Shown here piece by piece: positions 52,274 to 64,000 of a stretch of 64,000 nucleotides of DNA. The notes beneath the pieces were generated by a model. The model was not told the origin of the DNA, made no database searches, and saw only the letters and a program-made list of their open reading frames with translations. Source of the DNA: an uncultured Sphingomonadaceae bacterium (GTDB taxonomy: Bacteria > Pseudomonadota > Alphaproteobacteria > Sphingomonadales > Sphingomonadaceae); assembly GCA_947499255.1 (NCBI GenBank), contig CANMNF010000001.1, positions 1,364,001-1,428,000 of the forward strand, read 5' to 3'. Both the position numbers and the translations under genes were made by a program. Positions within the stretch are counted from its first letter, which is position 1, and the number at the start of each line of letters is the position of its first letter.

Positions 52274-52426
52274 TGTATTTCCCCCTTCTTCATACCCGTT
52301 TTTAAGCGATTCTCTCACCCTTATTGCGCGAATACCGCATTCTGCCAAAGGCCTTATCCAGTTTTTCGCGCTTGCCTTGGGGTGATTGCTTGCGCCACAC
52401 AGTAACCGGGCAAGAGGGGATTGGTT

Positions 52427-54499
52427 TTGGCCGAGGCGAAAAAGCGCGGACTGCTGACAAAAGGTTGGCGCTCTATGCGAGAAGCAGGGCCGCAGCGTTT
52501 GGGGCTGACTGCGGTACTGCTTATTGTCGCGCTTTTGCTGGCACGGATGAGCTGGGGCCTGCCTTTCACTGATAATGCGGAACGCGCGCTGTTCGATTAT
52601 CGCAGCTTTGTTTTGGCCGAGCAGGTCGAACAAGATGATCGTATCGTGATGATCACTTATGATGATCAATTGCTGATCGAGCTGCAAAAACGCTCGCCGC
52701 TGGATCGCGGGATGCTGGCCGCAGCGTTGCGCAATATGGATACGATGGGTGCCAAAGCGATCGGCATCGATATCCTGTTCGATCAAGAACAAAATGAAGA
52801 TGCGGAGCTGATCGAGACAATCCGCGCGATGCAAACGCCCGTCTCCATCGCTTATGCCGAAACTGGCACCAATGCCGAAGACATCGAATATGAACAGCAG
52901 GCACGCCTTGACTGGTTCATGGCGCAATTGGAAGGGTCCAACGCGCATCCTGCAAGCGTTCGCCTGTCATCTGATTCCAGCGATGTGGTGCGCGCATGGC
53001 CGGAGATTTTTGAGGGCCTGCCACCATTATTGGGCCGCGCGATGGTGGCCGCAGCCGATAATGGCGTGGATGATCCGTTTCCAGGCTATGTCGGCGCAAT
53101 CCGGTATCGCAAACCGCTCTATGTGGAAGAACCGGTGATCCCGCGTTTGGGGATTAAACTGTTTGCCGATGAAACGCTGCTTGCCATTCCAGAGGTGCGG
53201 CAACAATTCGCAGACCAGATCAATGGCCGCTATGTCGTGATTGGCGGCGATATTACCGATTATGACCGCGCCTCCACGCCTTTCACACCTTATGTTGATG
53301 AAGCCGTGACGGCAGGCGGGCGCGAAATTCGCCCACCGGGGATGGAAGTCCACGCGCAAACCATCGCGCAAATGCTGGATGATGCAATGCTGCATAAACC
53401 CAGTGAGGCGTGGTTGTGGCTTTATGCCGCATTGGTAGTGCTTGCTGCCGCGCTAACCGCTTTGCTGGAGCTGAAAAGCTGGAAGCTGATCCCGATCTTC
53501 CTGATACAAGCGGGCCTGTTTTTGGGCCTGCCTTTCTTCCTGCATGATCGCGGCGTTGATACGCTGGGCTTTCCGGCCATTGGCCCCATGCTGGGCTGGG
53601 TCGTGGCTTTTTCCGCCATGACCTCAACCGCGCGCGCAGCCAATGCCGAACAGCGCAAATTTGCTCAAGGTGCGCTGGGCAAATATCTGCCGCGCGAAAT
53701 GGCGGATCAAATCCTTGAGAACCCCGATCTGCTCTCGCTGCATGGGGAAAAGAGGCCGATCTTCGTGCTGTTTTCCGATCTGGAAGGCTTCACTAAGATG
53801 AGCCATGCGATTGAACCAGAAATGGTCGCCAAGCTGATCAACCGGTATCTGGAAGTGATCAGCCAGGTGATCCTTGATCATGGCGGCGTGATTGATAAAT
53901 TTATCGGCGATGCGGTTGTCGCCTTTTGGGGCGCACCGATTTCCAAACCTGATGACGCTACAAGAGCGGCCAAGGCAGGATACGCGGTATGGGCTGCTGG
54001 CGAAGAGTTTCGCAAAGAAGTGGCCGCAATGGACCCTGACCTGCCCAAGATCGGCAAAACGCGCGTGGGCCTGCATTATGGCGAAGCTGTTGTTGGCAAT
54101 TTTGGCGGTGATACGCGCATCCAATATACCGCGCTGGGCGATTCCATGAACACCGCCGCGCGATTGGAATCGGGCAACAAAACCTTTCAAAGCTGCGTCA
54201 TGGCATCGGAGGAATTTGCCGGCCAATCCGAAGTTGATTGGTGGCGACGCATGGGCCGCGTGGTGTTGTCCGGGCGCGCACAGCCGGTTAATCTGTATGA
54301 GCCAAGGCCCGATTTTCCGGCGGAAGATCGCGAAGCCTTGAATGCCGCCGTGATCCAATTGGACAGTGACCGCGAAACCGCCCTTGGTAAGATCGAAGCC
54401 ATCGCAAATCGGTACAAGGACGACACCGCCTTGCAGGCTTTGGCCACGCGCAGCCGCGATCTGAATGAGGCGGGCGCGCATGTTATGGGTTCAAAATAG
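52427..54499 (+). CDS. CHASE2-domain class III adenylyl cyclase
   Basis: A 690-residue inner-membrane cyclase. One membrane segment (about 24-40), an extracytoplasmic CHASE2 sensor (about 50-300), three membrane segments (about 315-390) and a class III cyclase domain (about 440-620). Metal-binding D451 is in FSDLEGFT and D495 in DKFIGDAVVAFWG; K491 and D572 (LGDSMNTAAR) are the adenine-selecting pair, N575 and R579 the transition-state residues. It should therefore make cAMP. The TTG at 52427 is preferred over one at 52421 because GAGGGGA (52414-52420) sits six bases before it. Together with the gene at 28775 this window has two CHASE2 sensors with different outputs. Confidence 0.92.
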   Translation: MAEAKKRGLLTKGWRSMREAGPQRLGLTAVLLIVALLLARMSWGLPFTDNAERALFDYRSFVLAEQVEQDDRIVMITYDDQLLIELQKRSPLDRGMLAAALRNMDTMGAKAIGIDILFDQEQNEDAELIETIRAMQTPVSIAYAETGTNAEDIEYEQQARLDWFMAQLEGSNAHPASVRLSSDSSDVVRAWPEIFEGLPPLLGRAMVAAADNGVDDPFPGYVGAIRYRKPLYVEEPVIPRLGIKLFADETLLAIPEVRQQFADQINGRYVVIGGDITDYDRASTPFTPYVDEAVTAGGREIRPPGMEVHAQTIAQMLDDAMLHKPSEAWLWLYAALVVLAAALTALLELKSWKLIPIFLIQAGLFLGLPFFLHDRGVDTLGFPAIGPMLGWVVAFSAMTSTARAANAEQRKFAQGALGKYLPREMADQILENPDLLSLHGEKRPIFVLFSDLEGFTKMSHAIEPEMVAKLINRYLEVISQVILDHGGVIDKFIGDAVVAFWGAPISKPDDATRAAKAGYAVWAAGEEFRKEVAAMDPDLPKIGKTRVGLHYGEAVVGNFGGDTRIQYTALGDSMNTAARLESGNKTFQSCVMASEEFAGQSEVDWWRRMGRVVLSGRAQPVNLYEPRPDFPAEDREALNAAVIQLDSDRETALGKIEAIANRYKDDTALQALATRSRDLNEAGAHVMGSK

Positions 54500-54630
54500 G
54501 CGCATAAGGACACGACAAGTTCAGTCGGCCTGCAATAGCCAAAAGCATAGTTTAACTTATCTCAGGAAAACAGACTGACAAAAGCGATCCAAATTTGCTA
54601 AGGATCGATAAAGAAATGAGGAGGGAACTC

Positions 54631-55380
54631 ATGATCTCACGCAAGAAATGGTTTATCGCCGCAGCAGGCGCTGTTGCCGCACTTGCTTTTGGCGCACCCG
54701 GCGCTTTGGCTGGAACGGTTGTTGCCGTCACCGGTCCATCGGCCAGCGATTATCCGGTCGGCACGCAAATCGGCGATACACAGCGCATTTCGCTGTCGAA
54801 TGGTGATCGGCTGACTGTGCTCGACAATGGCGGAACCCGCGTTTTCAGCGGTCCGGGCACGTATATTCTGGCGCGGCAGGGGCGGCAATCGTCAAACTCT
54901 GCACTCAACGCGCTGACCCGTCAACGCCAAGCAAGCCGCGCCCGCACAGGTGCGGTTCGCGGCACAGGTGCACCGGCCACGCGGCCCAATTTGTGGTATG
55001 TTGATGTGGCAACCGAAGGCAAAGTTTGCCTTAGCGATCCCACCTCTGTCCGGCTTTGGCGCGCAGATACCACGTTTGAACGTCCTTATGTCATTTCCGC
55101 CGTCGCTGATCCTGACGCAAAGGTAGAGCTGACTTTCAATGAAGGCGAAATGCTTGCCGGATGGGATTCGCGCATCGCGCTTACCGAAGGGCTGATTTAT
55201 ACAATCGCTGCGCAACCAGCAGGGGCCGGTGCCGATGCTCCGGCAGAGCCGATCAATGTGGATTTCGTCTTCCTTGATGAAGTGCCTGATGATGCAGAAG
55301 GATTGGCAGGCAAGTTGATCGAACATGGCTGCATGGGTCAAGTTGAGGTATTAGCGACTAGCGAGGACCTAAGGTCTTGA
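54631..55380 (+). CDS. Exported protein, possibly FecR-like, unknown function
   Basis: A 249-residue protein with a signal peptide (cleavage after ALAG, about residue 30). The next 60 residues (VVAVTGPSASDYPVGTQIG, SLSNGDRLTVLDNGGTRVFSGPGTYIL) look like the beta-sandwich of FecR-type domains, in which G and D/N turns recur, and the rest (CLSDPTSVRLWRADTTFERP) is not assigned. Two cysteines lie far apart. ATG 54631 is chosen because GAGGAGGG at 54618-54625 precedes it by five bases; the frame opens at 54595. FecR-like proteins are often neighbours of CHASE2 cyclases, as here. The gap to the next gene is 74 bases. Confidence 0.6.
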   Translation: MISRKKWFIAAAGAVAALAFGAPGALAGTVVAVTGPSASDYPVGTQIGDTQRISLSNGDRLTVLDNGGTRVFSGPGTYILARQGRQSSNSALNALTRQRQASRARTGAVRGTGAPATRPNLWYVDVATEGKVCLSDPTSVRLWRADTTFERPYVISAVADPDAKVELTFNEGEMLAGWDSRIALTEGLIYTIAAQPAGAGADAPAEPINVDFVFLDEVPDDAEGLAGKLIEHGCMGQVEVLATSEDLRS

Positions 55381-55454: not shown

Positions 55455-56882
55455 ATGCGTGAAAGCGCGAATCGGGTAAGAGATATTGCTGGTGTAATGG
55501 CCGCTGTTCAGCGGCGGTGCCCACGCGCTGTGTCTGGACTTGCCCTCACCTTCGCGCTTTGCTTTGCGCTTTTCGCTGGATTTGCACCGACCCACAGTCT
55601 TCAGGCGCAAAACGCCACCGGCTTTACCGGCGTTGCCTCCTGTGCTGGTTCAACCTGTCATGGCCGCAGCGAAGGCAATGGCGCGGTTGTGCGTCAGGAT
55701 GAAATCGCCACATGGCAAGAACCTTCCGCCGTCAGCGGCGCGCATAGCCGCGCTTACGCTTTGCTTGGCAGTCGGCGTGGTCAGCAGATCACGGCATCGC
55801 TTGGTATGGGCGATGCGCGGCAGGCGCAAGCTTGCCTTGGTTGTCATGCGACCTTCGCCCCTGTGTCACAGCGCGGCCCCAAATTCCGCCTTGATGATGG
55901 TGTGGGTTGTGAAAGCTGTCACGGCTCTGCGGGCGATTGGATCGCATCACATTACGAAGTGAACGGCAGCCATGCGAACAATGTCGCCAATGGTTTAACC
56001 CCGCTGGAACAACCGCAAGCGCGCGCCAATGTATGCCTTGATTGCCATTATGGCAGCACGGATCGCGGACAATTTGTCACCCATGCGATGATGGCAGCAG
56101 GCCACCCGCGCATCACCTTTGAACTCGACCTGTTCAGCTCCTTCCAACAACATCACGATGTGGATGACGATTACGTGCAGCGCAAAGGCGCGCCTGACTC
56201 GCTGCAATTGTGGGCCGTTGGACAAGCCGAAGCCGTTGTGCGCGCAACCGATCTGTTCGCACGGCCAGATTATGGAACTGAAGGCGTGTTCCCGCAGCTT
56301 TATTTCTATGATTGCCATTCATGTCACCGCGCGATTACCGATGGATCATCGCGCCGTCTGACGTTTCAAACCAATCCGGGCCGCCCGATCACCTTTGGTC
56401 AGCCGCCTTTCAATGATGAGAATATCATCATGCTGGGCACGATTGCAGAAACGTTTGCACCTGCTCGTGCCGACGCATTCCGCAATGCCAGCCGCAATTT
56501 TCACGCCAGCATGGATAAAGGCCGCAGCGAGGCGCAAGCCGCAGCGATTGCCTTGCGCGGTGAAGCGCGTGCCTTGTCCAATCTGTTGGCCTCGCGTTCG
56601 GGCCGGGGCAATGATGCCTTCGCTGTGATCGCAGCGATTGGCGATAAAGCAACTGCGCCGCGCTTTACCGATTATGCCGGATCAGTGCAGGCGGTGATGG
56701 CCATTGATACCATGCTTAACGCGATGGTGGTCGATGGCCGTGTGACCTATGGCGCAGCAGCCGGTATTCGTGCCAATTTGAACCGCGCATATAGTGCCGT
56801 TCGCGCGCCTGATAGCTACAAGCCTGCAGATTTCCGCACCGCCTTGGCCAGCGCAACACGCGCGATAGGACGGCTTCGGTAA
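55455..56882 (+). CDS. Pentaheme cytochrome c (c554-like)
   Basis: A 475-residue exported multiheme cytochrome. An internal signal or anchor segment (about 25-45) precedes heme sites CAGSTCH (63-69, an unusual C-X4-CH), CLGCH (127-131), CESCH (152-156), CLDCH (194-198) and CHSCH (287-291). The arrangement up to residue 200 resembles cytochrome c554/c-prime proteins; the C-terminal 150 residues are helical without heme sites. Distal ligands could be the His in GSHANN and FVTHAMMAAGHP. ATG 55455 has AGGGGGGA before it. The stop shares one base with the next start codon. First gene of a coupled four-gene unit. Confidence 0.88.
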   Translation: MRESANRVRDIAGVMAAVQRRCPRAVSGLALTFALCFALFAGFAPTHSLQAQNATGFTGVASCAGSTCHGRSEGNGAVVRQDEIATWQEPSAVSGAHSRAYALLGSRRGQQITASLGMGDARQAQACLGCHATFAPVSQRGPKFRLDDGVGCESCHGSAGDWIASHYEVNGSHANNVANGLTPLEQPQARANVCLDCHYGSTDRGQFVTHAMMAAGHPRITFELDLFSSFQQHHDVDDDYVQRKGAPDSLQLWAVGQAEAVVRATDLFARPDYGTEGVFPQLYFYDCHSCHRAITDGSSRRLTFQTNPGRPITFGQPPFNDENIIMLGTIAETFAPARADAFRNASRNFHASMDKGRSEAQAAAIALRGEARALSNLLASRSGRGNDAFAVIAAIGDKATAPRFTDYAGSVQAVMAIDTMLNAMVVDGRVTYGAAAGIRANLNRAYSAVRAPDSYKPADFRTALASATRAIGRLR

Positions 56883-58909
56883 TGCGCTTTCGGGGGGCGA
56901 CATCTGTGTTAGCGGCCAGCGCACTGGTGCTTGCCTCATGCGGCGGCGGCGGTGGTGGTAATGGCGGCAACGGTAATGGCGGCGGCAATGCTGGCGGCGG
57001 CGGAACGCCTGCTCCAACTCCCACGCCCACACCTGCAGGCTCGCTCTATCTTGCGCCTGCGCAGGAATCGCTTTCCGTCGCAGACGTACAGCAAATCATC
57101 GCGCAAGCCGTTGGCGAAGCGCAAGCGCGCAGCCTGCCATCGGTGATCGCGGTGACAGACCGGGTGGGCAATGTGCTTGCGGTCTTCAATATGAACGGGG
57201 CAAACCCGGATGCCTTGATCAGCCTTGAACAACTGGGCGGCAGCGCATCGCCGGGCAATGGCATCGGCCTTCAAGGGATCACCGTGCCATCTGCTGCAGG
57301 CGCAATCGCAAAGGCCATCACCGGCGCCTATTTGTCGAGCGGTGGCAATGCGTTTTCCAGCCGCACAGCCAGCCAGATTGTGCAGCAACATTTCCCACCT
57401 GCCCCCACAACGATTGGGCTTGAAAGCGGGCCATTGTTTGGTGTGCAATTCAGCCAGCTGCCCTGCTCTGATCTTTCCGCCCGCTTTGATGCAGGCGGCG
57501 GTGCAGGCGCGCTGATCGGGCCAAAGCGGTCTCCGCTGGGTCTCTCGGCCGATCCGGGCGGTCTGCCGATTTACAAAAACGGCGTTGTGGTTGGCGGCAT
57601 CGGTGTGATGGGTGATGGCGATTACGGGTTCGATGCCAATATCCTCGATATCGATATTGATGATGAAGAAGGCATCGCGCTGGCCGGCATCCAAAGCTTT
57701 ATGCCGCCCACCACAATTCGTGCAGAACGCATCTTCGTTGATGGAACAGCGCTGCGTTTTAGCGATGTGACCGTGGGCGATATCGGCCCTGCCTCCACCA
57801 ATTTTGACGCGATTAATGGAGTTGCAGGCAATCTCATCCCGATCCCGGGTTATAGCGATGGGACGATTGTCTCTGGCACGGTTTACGGCAGCGAAGCGTC
57901 TGGCATTCGCGCAGCTGGGCCAAGCGAATTTGCAACCGATGAAGCCTTTATCCTGACAGATGGTAGTGGCAATCCACGCTTCCCGGCCCGCGCTGGCACC
58001 GATGCGGGCAGCGTTGCACAACCGCTCACCCAAGGTGAAGTCACAGCCATTCTGGAAGAAGCGTTTGGCATTCTGAGCCGTTCACGCGCGCAAATCCGTC
58101 AACCGCTGGATAGCAGGATGCAGGCGACCGTTTCCATCGTTGACACACATGGCGCAATCCTTGGCATTATCCGCACGCCAGACGGTCCGATCTTCGGCAC
58201 CGATGTGAGCTTGCAAAAAGCGCGCACCGCGACCTTCTTCTCCAATTCGGTGGCTGCACAGCAATTGTCCGCGGTTGCCGCCATTCCAGGCGTGGCCGAT
58301 GTCGCGGCCTATGTTCAACGTGTTCGCACATTCCTGAATGATGCCAATGCGTTGACCGGCAGTTTTGCTTTTGCGGATCGTTCAGGCGGCAATTTGTCGC
58401 GGCCGTATTTTCCAGATGGTGAAGTGGGCACCCCGCCCGGACCGCTGTCAGTAGCCAACACTGCTGAGTTCAGCCCCTTTGCCGTTGGTTTGCAAACCGA
58501 TCTGGTGATCGCCAACCTCGCGCAGCACGTGGCCTTTGTGCAATCGGGCGGCGCTTCGCCTGATACCGATATTGGCTGTACCCAAGTACCCGAAGCTGCG
58601 CCCGGCCAACGCCGCCTTGCCAATGGCATCCAGATCTTCCCCGGCTCCGTTCCCATTTATCGCGGGAATGAGCTGATCGGCGGGATCGGTGTTTCTGGCG
58701 ATGGTATCGATCAAGATGACATGGTCAGCTTTTTGGGCTTGCACAATGCAGGGGTCCGCCTTGGCTCTATCAGCAATGCACCGCAAGCCATCCGCGCGGA
58801 CCGTGTCGAAGTCAATGTGAACGGCAGGCTGGTGCGGCTGCGCTATATCAGCTGTCCGTTCGCGCCCTTCCTTGATGATCCGGCGCAAAATGTCTGCGAG
58901 GGGCTGTGA
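56882..58909 (+). CDS. Lipoprotein with two HbpS/GlcG-type domains
   Basis: A 675-residue predicted lipoprotein (lipobox LASC, Cys 20), then a Gly/Asn and Pro/Thr spacer (about 21-50). The rest is two related domains, about 57-300 and 375-650. Each has the HbpS/GlcG (DUF336) pattern of a long helix (VQQIIAQAVGEAQARSLPSVIAVTDRVGNVLAVF and VTAILEEAFGILSRSRAQIRQ with ATVSIVDTHGAILGII), the AxAKA-type helix, and a closing GLPIYKNGVVVGGIGVMGDG or SVPIYRGNELIGGIGVSGDG strand-turn. Such domains bind heme or small ligands in other organisms. The start overlaps the cytochrome stop, the stop overlaps the next start. Confidence 0.88.
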   Translation: MRFRGATSVLAASALVLASCGGGGGGNGGNGNGGGNAGGGGTPAPTPTPTPAGSLYLAPAQESLSVADVQQIIAQAVGEAQARSLPSVIAVTDRVGNVLAVFNMNGANPDALISLEQLGGSASPGNGIGLQGITVPSAAGAIAKAITGAYLSSGGNAFSSRTASQIVQQHFPPAPTTIGLESGPLFGVQFSQLPCSDLSARFDAGGGAGALIGPKRSPLGLSADPGGLPIYKNGVVVGGIGVMGDGDYGFDANILDIDIDDEEGIALAGIQSFMPPTTIRAERIFVDGTALRFSDVTVGDIGPASTNFDAINGVAGNLIPIPGYSDGTIVSGTVYGSEASGIRAAGPSEFATDEAFILTDGSGNPRFPARAGTDAGSVAQPLTQGEVTAILEEAFGILSRSRAQIRQPLDSRMQATVSIVDTHGAILGIIRTPDGPIFGTDVSLQKARTATFFSNSVAAQQLSAVAAIPGVADVAAYVQRVRTFLNDANALTGSFAFADRSGGNLSRPYFPDGEVGTPPGPLSVANTAEFSPFAVGLQTDLVIANLAQHVAFVQSGGASPDTDIGCTQVPEAAPGQRRLANGIQIFPGSVPIYRGNELIGGIGVSGDGIDQDDMVSFLGLHNAGVRLGSISNAPQAIRADRVEVNVNGRLVRLRYISCPFAPFLDDPAQNVCEGL

Positions 58910-60951
58910 TGAGTATCGGCCTTTCTTTGCTCATTGCTTTGCAACCCGGTGAATTGCCGCCGGACCCGGCGATGTTGGTCGCAGCAAAAGCAGACGCTGT
59001 GCTCGTGCGTTCGCTGGATACCCAGGCGCCTGAACAAGAGCCGGAGACCGAACAGCGCAGTGTTGAAGGACAGCAGCAAGGCAAGCTCCCCGAAGGCGGA
59101 CTTGGCACCGCTATCGATACCGCTGAACCGCTTGATCCCGGCATTATCGATGGTCGCCGCCGCCCTGGATATAATGCCGAATTGCCCGATGCGATTACGC
59201 AGGACAATCCTGGCGCCGTGCGCGCACCGCCGCCGCAAGCTTTTCCCAATGAACAGATCCCGATCCCTGATCGCTGGCGCTTGATCCAAAATCTGGGTCT
59301 GGTGACTGAGAAATGGTACGATCCGTATAATCAGAACACCTATAAGGGCGATCGCCCGATCTGCATCCCATCCGATAAAGAGCAGGAACGCCGCCGCGTG
59401 GCGCGCGAAGAAGCGGCAGCAGCGGGTGTTGAACCGCCTTATGGCAGCGCGCCATGCAAAACCCCCAAATTCCTGGGGCTGACAGCGGAGAATGAGTGGT
59501 TCTTTATTGTCAACGCAATCAGCGATACGGTGTTTGAACCACGCACTTTCCCCATCCCTGTTGGTGTGCAAACCACCGAAGATCCCGACCGTCTTGATGT
59601 GTTTGGCAATGATTTTTCGCCGGTCTTGTCGCAGACATTTATCGCCGGTTTTGCGCTCCTTAAAGGCTCCACCGCCTATAAGCCGCCTGACGTGGAATAT
59701 CGCCTGACGCTGGCGTATAATGTGAACCATGTCGATGTGCCTGAACGGCGTGTTTTGCTGGTTGAACCCAGCGCGCCCAGCCATCGGACAGATCACTTCC
59801 TCGGCGTACAGGAAGCCTTCTTCGATTATCACATCCGCAACACTTCCAAGCGGTATGACTTTGACAGTTTCCGTATCGGGATCCAACCGATCCAGGCCGA
59901 TTTTCGCGGCTTCTTGTTCAATGATAGCCAGTTGGGCTTCCGCCTGTTTGGGACGCGCGATAACAACCGCTTCCAATATAATCTGGGCGCGTTTTGGCGG
60001 CTTGAGAAAGACACCAATTCCGGCCTCAATTCCGTGGTCCAGACGCCGCGCAAAGACTATGTCTTTATGGCCAATGCCTATCGGCAGGATTTCCTGATCC
60101 CTGCACTCACCAGCCAGGTGACCGTGGTGTATAATATGAACCGGGAGCGCAATGACGTCGAGATTGACGACAATGGCTTCCCCGTGCGCCCTGCCCTTTT
60201 GGGTTCGTTGCGCGGGCGCGAATATGATGTGGTCTATTTAGGCTATAATGCAGATGGCCGCGTGGGCCGGATCAACATTTCGGGCAGCTTTTATTGGGCG
60301 CTGGGCGAAGATCGCAACAATTTCTTCACGGACCGTCCCGCCGATATCAACGCGCAGTTTGGCGCGCTGGAACTCAGCTATGACAAAGACTGGATGCGCT
60401 TTCGCCTATCGGGTGCCTATGCCAGCGGGGATAGCGATCCGTTTGACGATACCGAAACCGGCTATGACGCGATTTTTGAAAATCCGATCTTTGCTGGCGC
60501 TGATACAAGTTACTGGATTCGCCAGACTATTCCGTTTGCCGGGGGTGGCCGCGCGATTGCAGTGAATGGCCGCAATGGCATTCTCAATTCGCTGCGTTCT
60601 TCAAAAGAACAAGGGCAAAGCAATTTCAACAATCCGGGCCTGATGTTGCTGGGCGTTGGCGCGGATTTTGATCTCACGCCGGAACTGCGCGTGTCGGCCA
60701 ATGCCAACCATTTATGGTTCGAAGATACAGCCACTTTGCAAGCGCTAAGAGTTGAAGGATCGATCCCCAAAGAGATCGGCTATGACCTGTCCGCCAGCGC
60801 GATCTGGCGGCCCAAAGCTACGCAAAACATCGTCCTGCGCCTATCTGGCGCAGCCCTTCTGGGCGGCGATGGTTTTGATGACCTGTTCGACCGGCTGGGC
60901 TCGGGCAGCGATTATTATTCCGTCCTCGCCAATGTGGTGTTGAGTTACTGA
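58909..60951 (+). CDS. Predicted outer-membrane beta-barrel of the cytochrome cluster
   Basis: A 680-residue protein. After a short hydrophobic start (IGLSLLIAL) comes an about 200-residue soluble part rich in Pro, Glu and Gln with two Cys (RPICIPS, SAPCKT), then alternating aromatic/polar strands typical of an outer-membrane barrel, ending in VLANVVLSY with the terminal aromatic residue that is a barrel-assembly signal. I do not recognise the family; the pattern NFFTDRPADINAQFG is the most distinctive block. A role as porin sheath for the neighbouring cytochromes is an inference from position. TGATG overlap with the gene before; ATG 58909 preferred over GTG 58906. Confidence 0.75.
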   Translation: MSIGLSLLIALQPGELPPDPAMLVAAKADAVLVRSLDTQAPEQEPETEQRSVEGQQQGKLPEGGLGTAIDTAEPLDPGIIDGRRRPGYNAELPDAITQDNPGAVRAPPPQAFPNEQIPIPDRWRLIQNLGLVTEKWYDPYNQNTYKGDRPICIPSDKEQERRRVAREEAAAAGVEPPYGSAPCKTPKFLGLTAENEWFFIVNAISDTVFEPRTFPIPVGVQTTEDPDRLDVFGNDFSPVLSQTFIAGFALLKGSTAYKPPDVEYRLTLAYNVNHVDVPERRVLLVEPSAPSHRTDHFLGVQEAFFDYHIRNTSKRYDFDSFRIGIQPIQADFRGFLFNDSQLGFRLFGTRDNNRFQYNLGAFWRLEKDTNSGLNSVVQTPRKDYVFMANAYRQDFLIPALTSQVTVVYNMNRERNDVEIDDNGFPVRPALLGSLRGREYDVVYLGYNADGRVGRINISGSFYWALGEDRNNFFTDRPADINAQFGALELSYDKDWMRFRLSGAYASGDSDPFDDTETGYDAIFENPIFAGADTSYWIRQTIPFAGGGRAIAVNGRNGILNSLRSSKEQGQSNFNNPGLMLLGVGADFDLTPELRVSANANHLWFEDTATLQALRVEGSIPKEIGYDLSASAIWRPKATQNIVLRLSGAALLGGDGFDDLFDRLGSGSDYYSVLANVVLSY

Positions 60952-63900
60952 TGCGCGTTTTCAAGCCTTCCGCAATCGCAACTGCGATCATGCTAGCCGC
61001 CTCGACCCTGTTTTCGGGCCAAGCTCTTATGGCCGCCGGCGATAAGGAGAAACCGGTCAGCCGCGATTATTCGCTGGTGACGGCTGCGCCCGCGCCGCAA
61101 AATCAGACTTTGGCAGAGATGATGGCAAAGTCCGATGGCTGCTTCTCCTGCCATACGCAAACCGATGCGCCGACCATGCATGTCAGCGCGTCTGTGCGGC
61201 TGGGCTGTACCGATTGTCATGGCGGCAATGCAGAAGTGATGGGCAATCCTGATCTGGGTTTTGATCACCCTGATTATGCCGCTGCGCGCGACGCCGCCCA
61301 CGTGCTACCAAAATATCCTGACAGCTGGCATTTCCCCTCTTCCGCCAATCCGGAACGGTCTTATTCGCTGCTCAACCGGGAAAGCCCGGAATTCATCAAG
61401 TTCAACAACCCTTCTGATTACCGTGTGGCGCGCGAGGCTTGCGGTTCGTGCCATATGGATCTGGTCGAAGCGAATGAGCGTTCCTTGATGGCAACAGGCG
61501 CGATGCTATGGGGCGGAGCGGCCTATAATAACGGGATTTTGCCGTATAAGAATTATGTGATTGGAGAGGCATACACGCGCGATGGCGTTGCCGCACAATT
61601 GCTCAGCCCAGGAGCGCCCCCGGGCACCGTTTCCCAAGCGCAGGCCAATCGCGGCGCATTGGGTACGCTTTATCCTTTGCCGACATGGCAGGTGGTGCCG
61701 CCGGGCGATGTGTTCCGCGTGTTTGAGCGGGGTGGACGCACAATCAACTCACAATTCCCCGAAATCGGCATCCCCAATCCAACCGGTCAGATCCAGCGCC
61801 TCGAAGAACCCGGCCGCCCCGATCTCAAACAATCCAATCGCGGCCCGGCCACAGGTTTGCGCGCCGCAATTCCTGTGCTCAATATCCACAAGACGCGCCT
61901 CAACGATCCTTTCACCTTGTTCATGGGCACCAATGATCAGCCCGGTGATTATCGCCATTCCGGCTGCGCATCATGTCATGTGGTCTACGCCAATGACCGG
62001 GAACCGCGCCATTCTTCGGTCTATGCGAAATACGGGCGTGACGGACAGTCTGTAACTGTCGATCCCACCATTGCTGGCCAGTATCAAGATGACCATGGTT
62101 ATGACGATCATGGCCACGCTGGTCTGAAACAACCCGGCCATGGCGATGATCATCATGGTGAGGACAAGGAGAAAGAACGCGGCCACCCGCTGCGCCACGT
62201 CTTCACCCGCGCCATTCCCACCGCGCAGTGCATGAATTGCCACATGCACCAGCCAAATATCTTCCTCAATTCCTATCTCGGTTACACGATGTGGGATTAC
62301 GAGAGCGATGCGCCCTTCATGTGGCCCGGCCCTGAAAACACGACACCGCGCCCCGAAGGCATGTCAGATGAAGAATACCAGGCCTTCTTCAAAACACAGC
62401 GTTTCCCAACAGCGGAAGAAGTGCGCAAAGTCCTTGATCGCAACCCTGAAGGTGCAGCACCGCGCGGGCTGTGGGCGGATCTCGATTTCCTGCGCAATGT
62501 GTATGACCTCAATGAGCATTTGAACGACACGCAATTTGCCGATTATCATGGACACGGGTGGAACTTCCGCGCGATCTTCAAACGCGATCGCGAAGGCAAT
62601 CTGCTCGATGCTGAGGGCGACATTGTCGATCCCGATGATCCTGAAAAATGGCGCCGCGAAGGCGAAGGCAAATTCGTCGAACCCGGTACCAATCCGGGCA
62701 AAGCAGTGCATTTGATGAGCATCCATGCCGAAAAGGGCATGCAATGCGCAGACTGCCACTATTCGCAAGACAGCCACGGCAATGGCCTTATCTATGGCGA
62801 GGTTGCAAATGCGATTGAGATCGGTTGTAAGGATTGCCACGGGACGGCGGACGCGCTGCCAACCTTGCGCACTTCTGGCCCGGCCGCACCGCCACAAGGC
62901 CATGACCTTACCCTTATCCGCAACCCCGATGGCCGCCGCCGGTTTGAATGGGTTGAGACAGAAGCGGGCCGTCAGCAGCTGATCCAGCGTTCGATTATCG
63001 ATCCTGAACTGGAATGGGTTGTCAGCCTTACCAAAGACAGCGTCGATCCCGAAGCGCCCGGCTTCAACGCCAAATCTGCACGCGCCAAATTGATGAGCCG
63101 TGACGGCGCAGAAACGGGCAATTTTGAATTCGGCGCCGGCATCGCGCCGCAAGATCGCGCGCATGGCGAAACCGAAATGGCGTGCTTCACCTGCCACCTG
63201 TCATGGACGACAAGTTGCGGCGGGTGTCACTTGCCAATCGAGGCCAATTGGCAAAGCGAAGTGCACCGCTATGATGGCGAAACCACGCGTAACTTTGCGA
63301 CATATAACCCACAGGTCGCGCGTGATCAGATGTTCCAATTGGGCAAGCATCAGACGACCAAAGGCAATCAAATTGCGCCTGTCCGCTCAACTTCGGCGCT
63401 GGTGCTCTCTTCTACCAATATCAACCGCGAACGCATCTATGTGCAGCAGCCGCCAATCAGCGCGGTCGGCTTCTCATCCCAGGCCTTCGCGCCGCATTTC
63501 CCGCATACAGTCCGCCTGACAGAGACGAAGACGTGTTCAGATTGTCATCTCTCCGAAGCGGAAGACAACAATGCGATCATGGCGCAGCTTATGCTGCTGG
63601 GCACCAATTTCGTGAACTTTGTCGGCATGAATGCGTGGACCGGTCTTGAAGGTGGGTTCGAAGCGATCCGCGTTACCGAATATGATGAGCCGCAGGCAGT
63701 GCTTGGCTCTTACTTGCACCGCTATTCCTATCCTGACTATTACCGCCAGCATGTCGAAGACAATGATCGCGAGCTCAAGGATTGGACGCGCGGTGTGTTC
63801 TTCGATGGCGATCTGTCAGGTGAGACCAAGCCGGTTGAGCAGTTCGCCAATGTGCACGAATCCACCAGCGACCGAGTTGGCTGTTTGCAAATGCGCGGCG

Positions 63901-64000
63901 AATACATGTTCGTTGCCGAAGGTTCGGGTGGCTTGCGCGTTTACGATATCGCCAGCATTGCGAACAAAGGCTTCTCAGAACGGATCATCACCGCGCCGTT
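60951..64000 (+). CDS. Decaheme (or larger) cytochrome c with LVIVD-type C-terminal start, incomplete
   Basis: At least 1016 residues; the gene runs past the window end. A signal peptide (cleavage about residue 28) is followed by ten CXXCH sites: CFSCH 64, CTDCH 86, CGSCH 164, CASCH 339, CMNCH 427, CADCH 599, CKDCH 626, CFTCH 745, CGGCH 756 and CSDCH 862. Extra distal His are plentiful, with a His/Asp-rich loop near residues 375-405. After the last heme, VGCLQMRGEYMFVAEGSGGLRVYDIASI looks like the first LVIVD repeat of a beta-propeller. ATG 60951 shares a base with the stop of the barrel gene. Function unknown, an electron-transfer protein. Confidence 0.88.
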   Translation, partial: MRVFKPSAIATAIMLAASTLFSGQALMAAGDKEKPVSRDYSLVTAAPAPQNQTLAEMMAKSDGCFSCHTQTDAPTMHVSASVRLGCTDCHGGNAEVMGNPDLGFDHPDYAAARDAAHVLPKYPDSWHFPSSANPERSYSLLNRESPEFIKFNNPSDYRVAREACGSCHMDLVEANERSLMATGAMLWGGAAYNNGILPYKNYVIGEAYTRDGVAAQLLSPGAPPGTVSQAQANRGALGTLYPLPTWQVVPPGDVFRVFERGGRTINSQFPEIGIPNPTGQIQRLEEPGRPDLKQSNRGPATGLRAAIPVLNIHKTRLNDPFTLFMGTNDQPGDYRHSGCASCHVVYANDREPRHSSVYAKYGRDGQSVTVDPTIAGQYQDDHGYDDHGHAGLKQPGHGDDHHGEDKEKERGHPLRHVFTRAIPTAQCMNCHMHQPNIFLNSYLGYTMWDYESDAPFMWPGPENTTPRPEGMSDEEYQAFFKTQRFPTAEEVRKVLDRNPEGAAPRGLWADLDFLRNVYDLNEHLNDTQFADYHGHGWNFRAIFKRDREGNLLDAEGDIVDPDDPEKWRREGEGKFVEPGTNPGKAVHLMSIHAEKGMQCADCHYSQDSHGNGLIYGEVANAIEIGCKDCHGTADALPTLRTSGPAAPPQGHDLTLIRNPDGRRRFEWVETEAGRQQLIQRSIIDPELEWVVSLTKDSVDPEAPGFNAKSARAKLMSRDGAETGNFEFGAGIAPQDRAHGETEMACFTCHLSWTTSCGGCHLPIEANWQSEVHRYDGETTRNFATYNPQVARDQMFQLGKHQTTKGNQIAPVRSTSALVLSSTNINRERIYVQQPPISAVGFSSQAFAPHFPHTVRLTETKTCSDCHLSEAEDNNAIMAQLMLLGTNFVNFVGMNAWTGLEGGFEAIRVTEYDEPQAVLGSYLHRYSYPDYYRQHVEDNDRELKDWTRGVFFDGDLSGETKPVEQFANVHESTSDRVGCLQMRGEYMFVAEGSGGLRVYDIASIANKGFSERIITAP

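Follow-up and report, generated by a model that had tools for sequence, protein, structure and literature searches.

The window analysed here, a 64,000-nucleotide stretch of the genome of an uncultured Sphingomonadaceae bacterium (G000, C1:1364001-1428000), ends in four overlapping genes which, judging from their sequences, belong to a conserved electron-transfer system of seven components plus accessory proteins, with an inner half of the PCC3/PCC4 type. The four genes are read here as the outer-membrane half of a trans-envelope chain that would carry electrons from cytosolic NAD(P)H through an outer-membrane complex to an external acceptor, an interpretation that we regard as having an even chance of being correct. 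Its computed basis is gene content, motifs, co-occurrence, gene order, domain order and the predicted fold of the barrel, and the inner half of the system is better supported than the exit of electrons. The preliminary description had treated these genes as a four-gene unit; an adjacent inner-membrane module co-occurs with them, so the system is larger.

The four overlapping genes and the barrel

All four genes are located on the plus strand. CytA extends from the ATG at 55455 to the stop at 56882 (55455..56882, 475 aa) and is followed by the HbpS/GlcG-type protein (56882..58909, ATG at 56882, 675 aa), the outer-membrane barrel (58909..60951, 680 aa from the ATG at 58909) and BigCyt, a decaheme protein with LVIVD repeats, which begins with the ATG at 60951 and is cut by the window end (60951..64000). 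The full BigCyt gene was taken from the genome (G000:C1:1424951-1429075, corresponding to L007:6952-11076) and encodes 1374 aa; neither its LVIVD region nor the neighbouring inner-membrane module, both located past the window end, appears in the preliminary description. The open reading frames agree with the four consecutive genes and the one-base overlaps first noted (at 56882, 58909 and 60951), the second of which requires that the barrel start at the ATG at 58909 and not at the alternative GTG at 58906. In gene order, the proteins contain four CxxCH motifs plus one Cx4CH motif, none, none and ten CxxCH motifs.

CytA is a cytochrome of the c554 type (PF13435, 1.5e-10), with an N-terminal hydrophobic stretch at residues 25-43 that was read by eye as a signal peptide. 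It had been called pentaheme; four CxxCH sites were confirmed, and a fifth heme counts only if the unusual Cx4CH motif binds it. The 4+1 arrangement is kept in 123 of 124 homologues longer than 430 aa, the exception being that of locus L149. For the HbpS-type protein, the family given in the preliminary description held; a lipobox (LASC-GGG) was assigned by eye, and PF03928 matches four stretches (1.9e-21). Domains of the HbpS type bind heme. Using a regular expression, the lipobox was found in 118 of 138 homologues, and 15 of the 20 misses belong to distant loci, which speaks against the proposed chain. BigCyt, predicted to carry ten or more hemes, has exactly ten CxxCH motifs, followed by the C-terminal LVIVD repeats (PF08309, 1.8e-13), and a Sec-type signal without a lipobox was recognised by eye. 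Ten motifs are present in 134 of 137 homologues longer than 1250 aa and nine in the other three (L042, L052 and L166); in L042 and L052 the automatically chosen start codon falls past the first heme, which accounts for the lower number, an explanation that does not apply to L166. The structure model of the window part of BigCyt (1016 aa, 42-row alignment) reached a pLDDT of 40.6 and a pTM of 0.28 and was discarded, and the BigCyt profile gave no matches among sequences of solved structures at E values up to 1.

Neither Pfam nor NCBIfam offered a family for the barrel at E 0.1, and its profile gave no matches among sequences of solved structures at E values up to 10. Its predicted model (pLDDT 66.7) has 18 strands in residues 197-679, preceded by a low-confidence N-terminal extension (residues 1-148 nearly all below 50). 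The best fold match was AlgE, the alginate exporter of Pseudomonas aeruginosa (Foldseek 5.7e-17; VIA Z 24.2, rmsd 3.2, 356 residues aligned, 5d5d), followed by substrate porins of the OprD type. The likeness to AlgE is one of predicted fold only, with 15% identity across the structural alignment and no membership of a sequence family. The model supports an outer-membrane barrel, as had been predicted, and speaks against a sheath of MtrB size. MtrB has 26 strands. In the available part of PMC5877670, 28 predicted motifs are given for it. A decaheme cytochrome housed inside the barrel is doubtful, because the model has 18 strands and MtrB is larger; that a heme protein crosses the outer membrane or lies outside it is what we infer for the proposed chain. 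No match to the MtrB_PioB family (PF11854) was obtained in the barrel (E 0.1) or in the genome (E 0.001), which sets the system apart from MtrB/PioB and agrees with the suggestion of an independent route; the absence of MtrB-type chains among the fold matches listed carries no weight as proof. The system resembles MtrCAB, PioAB and MtoAB in having a barrel gene beside decaheme cytochrome genes and in the general task proposed, and differs from them in its AlgE-like 18-strand barrel model.

With Z values of about 21-24 to AlgE and porins of the OprD type, the barrel model would also suit the main alternative, which we consider possible but tentative. According to it, a multiheme reductase would work either within the periplasm or at the inner surface of the outer membrane, with the barrel as a channel that admits a small acceptor (selenite, tellurite or another oxyanion) or releases a product, and with BigCyt or CytA as the terminal reductase fed by the inner module. 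BigCyt matches the NCBIfam model of ExtM, from a selenite/tellurite operon, with 62.8 bits (46.5 in the genome search), far below the cut-off of 800, and this weak match may only reflect common heme motifs. The sphingomonad Erythromonas ursincola offers a second point of comparison. In the available text of PMC5488091, this aerobic phototroph is described with a tellurite reductase that is associated with the membrane and takes electrons from NADH; however, the subunits are of 62 and 55 kDa, and the words heme and cytochrome are absent from that text. The Geobacter extHIJKLMNOPQS genes, as presented in the available part of PMC5877670, encode a porin-like barrel, a b-type cytochrome, an Fe-S protein and several multiheme cytochromes, including ones with 5, 10 and 12 hemes, which is a combination like the one described here, and selenite and tellurite reduction is affected when the ExtI porin is lost. 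The same source gives Ext a Rieske protein, where the sphingomonad system has the FAD/cNMP/[4Fe-4S] protein, and a rhodanese-like ExtH, whereas the rhodanese family was not found among the scanned neighbours. Sequence cannot decide whether the working mode is that of a porin-cytochrome conduit or of a barrel-fed multiheme reductase.

The inner-membrane module and its PCC3/PCC4-type relatives

Downstream of BigCyt, the minus strand encodes the inner-membrane module (L007:12784-17878), composed of an FHA-like cytochrome, a cytochrome b-like membrane protein and a FAD/Fe-S protein, the gene of which comes immediately before the membrane-protein gene. The FAD/Fe-S protein (835 aa) combines a Pyr_redox_3 domain (8.8e-31), two cNMP stretches and a C-terminal ferredoxin domain with Fer4 families, and matches PF13247 (4.3e-10). 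In 29 of 29 complete homologues, 16 cysteines are present within the last 230 residues. Both dinucleotide glycine motifs are conserved. A motif test of the preference for NAD or NADP was not decisive (7 of 29), and the donor is therefore written as NAD(P)H. In the proposed route, cytosolic NAD(P)H would reduce the FAD domain, and electrons would pass to [4Fe-4S] clusters, for four of which the 16 cysteines are enough, and from these to the two hemes b that the membrane protein would bind.

The cytochrome b-like protein (286 aa) has Pfam matches below the cut-off and owes its name to motifs. Two WX3HX13H motifs are present in 90 of 91 complete homologues, with a single copy in the remaining one, and SGXXG in 76 of the 91, that of the window genome included; the protein presumably binds heme b. 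Its hemes would deliver electrons to the FHA-like cytochrome (576 aa), which matches PF16697 at residues 18-101 (5.7e-8; PF00498 was below cut-off) and has one transmembrane segment (143-161), the first heme at residue 202 and ten CxxCH motifs. Both the ten motifs and one transmembrane segment past residue 100 were found in 93 of 93 complete homologues. PF14522 was detected once in the genome, within this protein, and no NapC/NirT-type protein (PF03264) was found in the genome. Because the single transmembrane segment separates the FHA-like stretch from the first heme, topology places the decaheme arm in the periplasm. From there, electrons would reach, directly or via CytA, an outer-membrane complex of barrel, HbpS-type protein and BigCyt, and finally an acceptor on the cell surface or outside it, the contacts between these proteins being presumed. 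On the cytosolic side, the pair of cyclic-nucleotide domains and the FHA-like domain probably serve for switching or docking.

In two genomes of family f190 (G606 and G713), the FAD/Fe-S and cytochrome b-like proteins are fused in one frame of ~1120 aa (L244:6844-10203 and L245:3046-6420), adjoining a homologue of the FHA-like cytochrome with nine motifs; the stretch fetched contains no barrel. The flanks fetched around the inner module of G581, where the contig ends just beyond the module, lack a barrel as well. Such modules speak against the proposed chain.

The combination of genes had not been recognised in the preliminary description; however, a precedent exists in the cytochrome b-like protein, which has the hallmark motifs of the PCC3/PCC4 inner-membrane protein. 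In the available part of He et al. 2017 (PMC5566968), PCC3 and PCC4 are putative porin-cytochrome complexes with an inner-membrane protein that contains two WX3HX13H motifs plus SGXXG and is read by those authors as a di-heme b protein. PCC4 is described there with an Fe-S protein (pfam13247) upstream of the inner-membrane protein (subgroup II) and with three multiheme cytochromes in the periplasm that carry 4, 5 and 10 hemes, and the extracellular and periplasmic cytochromes of PCC3 with 22-39 residues per heme. The term PCC4 occurs once in PMC13264449. As far as these accounts go, the window genome shares with PCC3 and PCC4 the WX3HX13H pair and, in most homologues, SGXXG; with PCC4 a decaheme cytochrome, an Fe-S protein and a porin; and with subgroup II the position of a PF13247-matching (here FAD/Fe-S) gene directly before that of the membrane protein. 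It differs from PCC4 in its heme motifs (5, 10 and 10, with LVIVD repeats in one decaheme protein), in the fusion of a FAD domain to the cNMP/Fe-S protein, in the FHA-like anchor and in the HbpS-type protein. Identity with PCC3 was ruled out by heme density, which is 58, 95 and 137 residues per heme here (576/10, 475/5 and 1374/10).

The profile of the membrane protein matched 21 of 398 phylum genomes and retrieved counterparts in L246 (1.2e-10), L249 (3.6e-8) and L251 (1.9e-5). L246 and L249 combine a cytochrome of the c554 type with a cNMP/Fe-S protein, a membrane protein of the same kind and a decaheme cytochrome, and they were tentatively read as PCC4-like. For the weak matches in L247 and L250 no clear locus was found. 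The genomes of the two loci tentatively read as PCC4-like (G693 and G628) are outside the 12 of 398 that match the barrel profile. In another genome of the same class (G707), a PCC3-like inner-membrane protein lies beside a frame with 24 CxxCH motifs (L248:9116-11888). When this protein was used as query, 41 of 109 family genomes matched, none more strongly than E 2.6e-12, and the barrel system is present in 35 of these 41. The six matches in genomes without that system (G003, G011, G017, G069, G085 and G091) may be further relatives of this membrane protein. No locus of the 'Erythrobacter sp.' PCC3 entry of He et al. was matched in this search of the 109 family genomes.

The same chain could run inwards, with oxidation of an Mn(II) or Fe(II) donor at the surface and delivery of electrons to the quinone pool or to NAD(P)+. 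We consider this unlikely: the reduction of NAD(P)+ by Fe(II) or Mn(II) is energetically uphill, and the cytosolic FAD/[4Fe-4S] arm favours NAD(P)H as donor. Inward flow, with the quinone pool receiving electrons from a donor outside the cell, is nevertheless how He et al. depict PCC3 and PCC4, and the available part of their paper (PMC5566968) names an Erythrobacter that oxidises Mn(II) and has PCC3. The route preferred here would run outwards, starting from NAD(P)H.

Co-occurrence, gene order and neighbouring genes

In a sample of 249 genomes drawn evenly over the Sphingomonadaceae, the barrel was found in 94, and BigCyt in the identical 94, which supports the view that barrel and multiheme cytochromes belong together. 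As the two sets of genomes coincide, homologues of the barrel do not occur mostly without a cytochrome, which the preliminary description had named as grounds for rejecting its proposal. The FAD/Fe-S protein gave a strong match (best E 2.5e-216 or lower) in 93 genomes, all within the 94, and in none of the other 155; any match, through common domains, was obtained in 241 of 249, with 1.9e-12 as the lowest E value printed outside the 94. The one barrel genome without a strong match (G022) is 67% complete. Systems of this kind had been described as not expected in this lineage, but the barrel system is present in 40 of the 96 genera sampled.

The gene-order search proposed at the outset yielded HbpS, barrel and BigCyt in the same order on one strand at all 146 loci with the three genes (48 of 50 family loci, 2 of 2 on plasmids, 77 of 80 in the named set and 19 of 20 distant ones). 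The six loci short of all three (L065, L069, L116, L157, L181 and L199) have a contig end beside the barrel. CytA is immediately upstream at 48 of 48 family, 2 of 2 plasmid, 69 of 77 named and 2 of 19 distant loci; it was found in ten of the 20 distant stretches, in four of them on the barrel strand.

This fixed order, with no barrel lacking BigCyt among the 249 genomes, argues against a reading in which the barrel would export polysaccharide like AlgE, or the set would serve iron or heme acquisition, with the cytochromes as chance neighbours or for sensing only. AlgE is indeed the best fold match and HbpS-type domains do bind heme, yet at least 6 of 19 positions of the Fur-like sites upstream of CytA are mismatched in all 125 sequences, and we regard this reading as very improbable.

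The membrane protein and the FHA-like cytochrome were found in the same fetched stretch at 25 of 48 family, 1 of 2 plasmid, 50 of 77 named and 17 of 19 distant loci; in the remaining loci the sequence fetched may not reach far enough, or the module may lie elsewhere. In several genomes the FAD/Fe-S gene is away from the barrel, as in G087, where it is on another contig. At the 17 distant loci with all five genes, those of the membrane protein, FHA-like cytochrome, HbpS-type protein, barrel and BigCyt are colinear, which suggests that the two-operon layout of the sphingomonads is derived. A piece of the FAD/Fe-S protein was detected at 16 of 20 distant loci; it follows BigCyt in L205 and precedes the membrane protein in all the others.

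A class draw of alphaproteobacteria gave 25 matches to the barrel system in 337 genomes, three of them Sphingomonadaceae, and the 12 matches to the barrel profile in the phylum draw comprise eight Sphingomonadaceae, two genomes elsewhere in the class and two outside it (G714 and G904). In distant alphaproteobacterial families and in these two outside genomes, both halves are found together, mostly colinear. GTDB contigs, when scanned, yielded at least 552 stretches encoding a relative, of which 80 loci were kept as the named set; Erythrobacter, Aurantiacibacter, Pontixanthobacter, Sphingobium, Novosphingobium and Sphingopyxis are carriers among the matches listed. BigCyt matched 15 records of a plasmid collection, 13 of which cover at least 80% (12 Sphingobium, 1 Sphingopyxis), and none of 106 pattern matches in viral contigs was confirmed as a relative by tblastn.

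Two possible accessory genes precede CytA on the plus strand. The first encodes a CHASE2-class III nucleotide cyclase (52421..54499; PF05226, PF00211), with homologues in 26 of the 80 named loci, and the second (54595..55380) a protein without a Pfam family at E 0.1, which we provisionally label FecR and which was found in 22 of the 80, always together with the cyclase. The position of a cyclase beside genes for cNMP domains is a hint that control may be local. Between the two operons, on the minus strand, lie the genes of a cytochrome c'-type protein with an apparent lipobox (L007:11265-11774; PF01322, 2.3e-28) and, between this and the FHA-like cytochrome, of a metallophosphoesterase. Past the inner module, the plus strand encodes a CcmH/CycH-type TPR protein and then an apparent two-partner secretion pair of the ShlB/FhaC type (L007:18967-19998 and L008:2-7010, from G000:C1:1436966 onward), whose exoprotein frame (L008:816-7010) has a very long terminal proline run and extends off the contig end. 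Such a pair is also present on pMSHV of Sphingobium herbicidovorans (L039:524-8677), on the other side of the system, and the two exoproteins are related (31.5% over about 455 aa, 3e-35); TpsB-like matches occur in just two further fetched stretches of the compared sets (L063 and L202).

Regulation was addressed with consensus strings and with shuffled sequences that preserve base composition only. The hosts are aerobic heterotrophs, which speaks against the proposed chain. FNR-like boxes upstream of CytA were found in 15 of 125 sequences at two mismatches and in none at fewer, with 7.6 expected at two or fewer after shuffling. This exceeds the shuffled sequences only mildly and gives no real support for anaerobic control, and FNR, CRP, RegA and Fur boxes showed no clear excess upstream of that gene. 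An excess upstream of HbpS and the FHA-like cytochrome was rejected, as the boxes lie in neighbouring coding sequence common to related loci.

Significance for the Sphingomonadaceae

A bolder version of the proposal, which we put forward as speculative, is that the system may be a cyclic-nucleotide-gated NAD(P)H oxidase with electron exit through a new outer-membrane unit of AlgE-like 18-strand barrel, HbpS-type lipoprotein and decaheme/LVIVD protein. It might then be a standard outlet of many aerobic Sphingomonadaceae that megaplasmids carry as well and that also occurs in distant alphaproteobacterial families and, outside the class, in other genomes of the phylum. Literature titles and abstract openings named no such sphingomonad locus and gave no description of the outer half, which is weak evidence of absence.

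The Sphingomonadaceae are a large family known as aerobes, and the named carriers include aerobic phototrophs (Erythrobacter) and degraders of pollutants (Sphingobium, Sphingopyxis). A wire to the outside is not expected in such bacteria. Because the system is patchily distributed (94 of 249 genomes) and its two halves co-occur so closely, a deletion test would be direct. If the proposed route is correct, over a third of the sampled Sphingomonadaceae genomes would hold a complete path from cytosolic reductant to the outer membrane, a system of the porin-cytochrome type would be available in culturable aerobes, and the finding would bear on survival without oxygen, on metal and metalloid turnover and on the use of electrodes.
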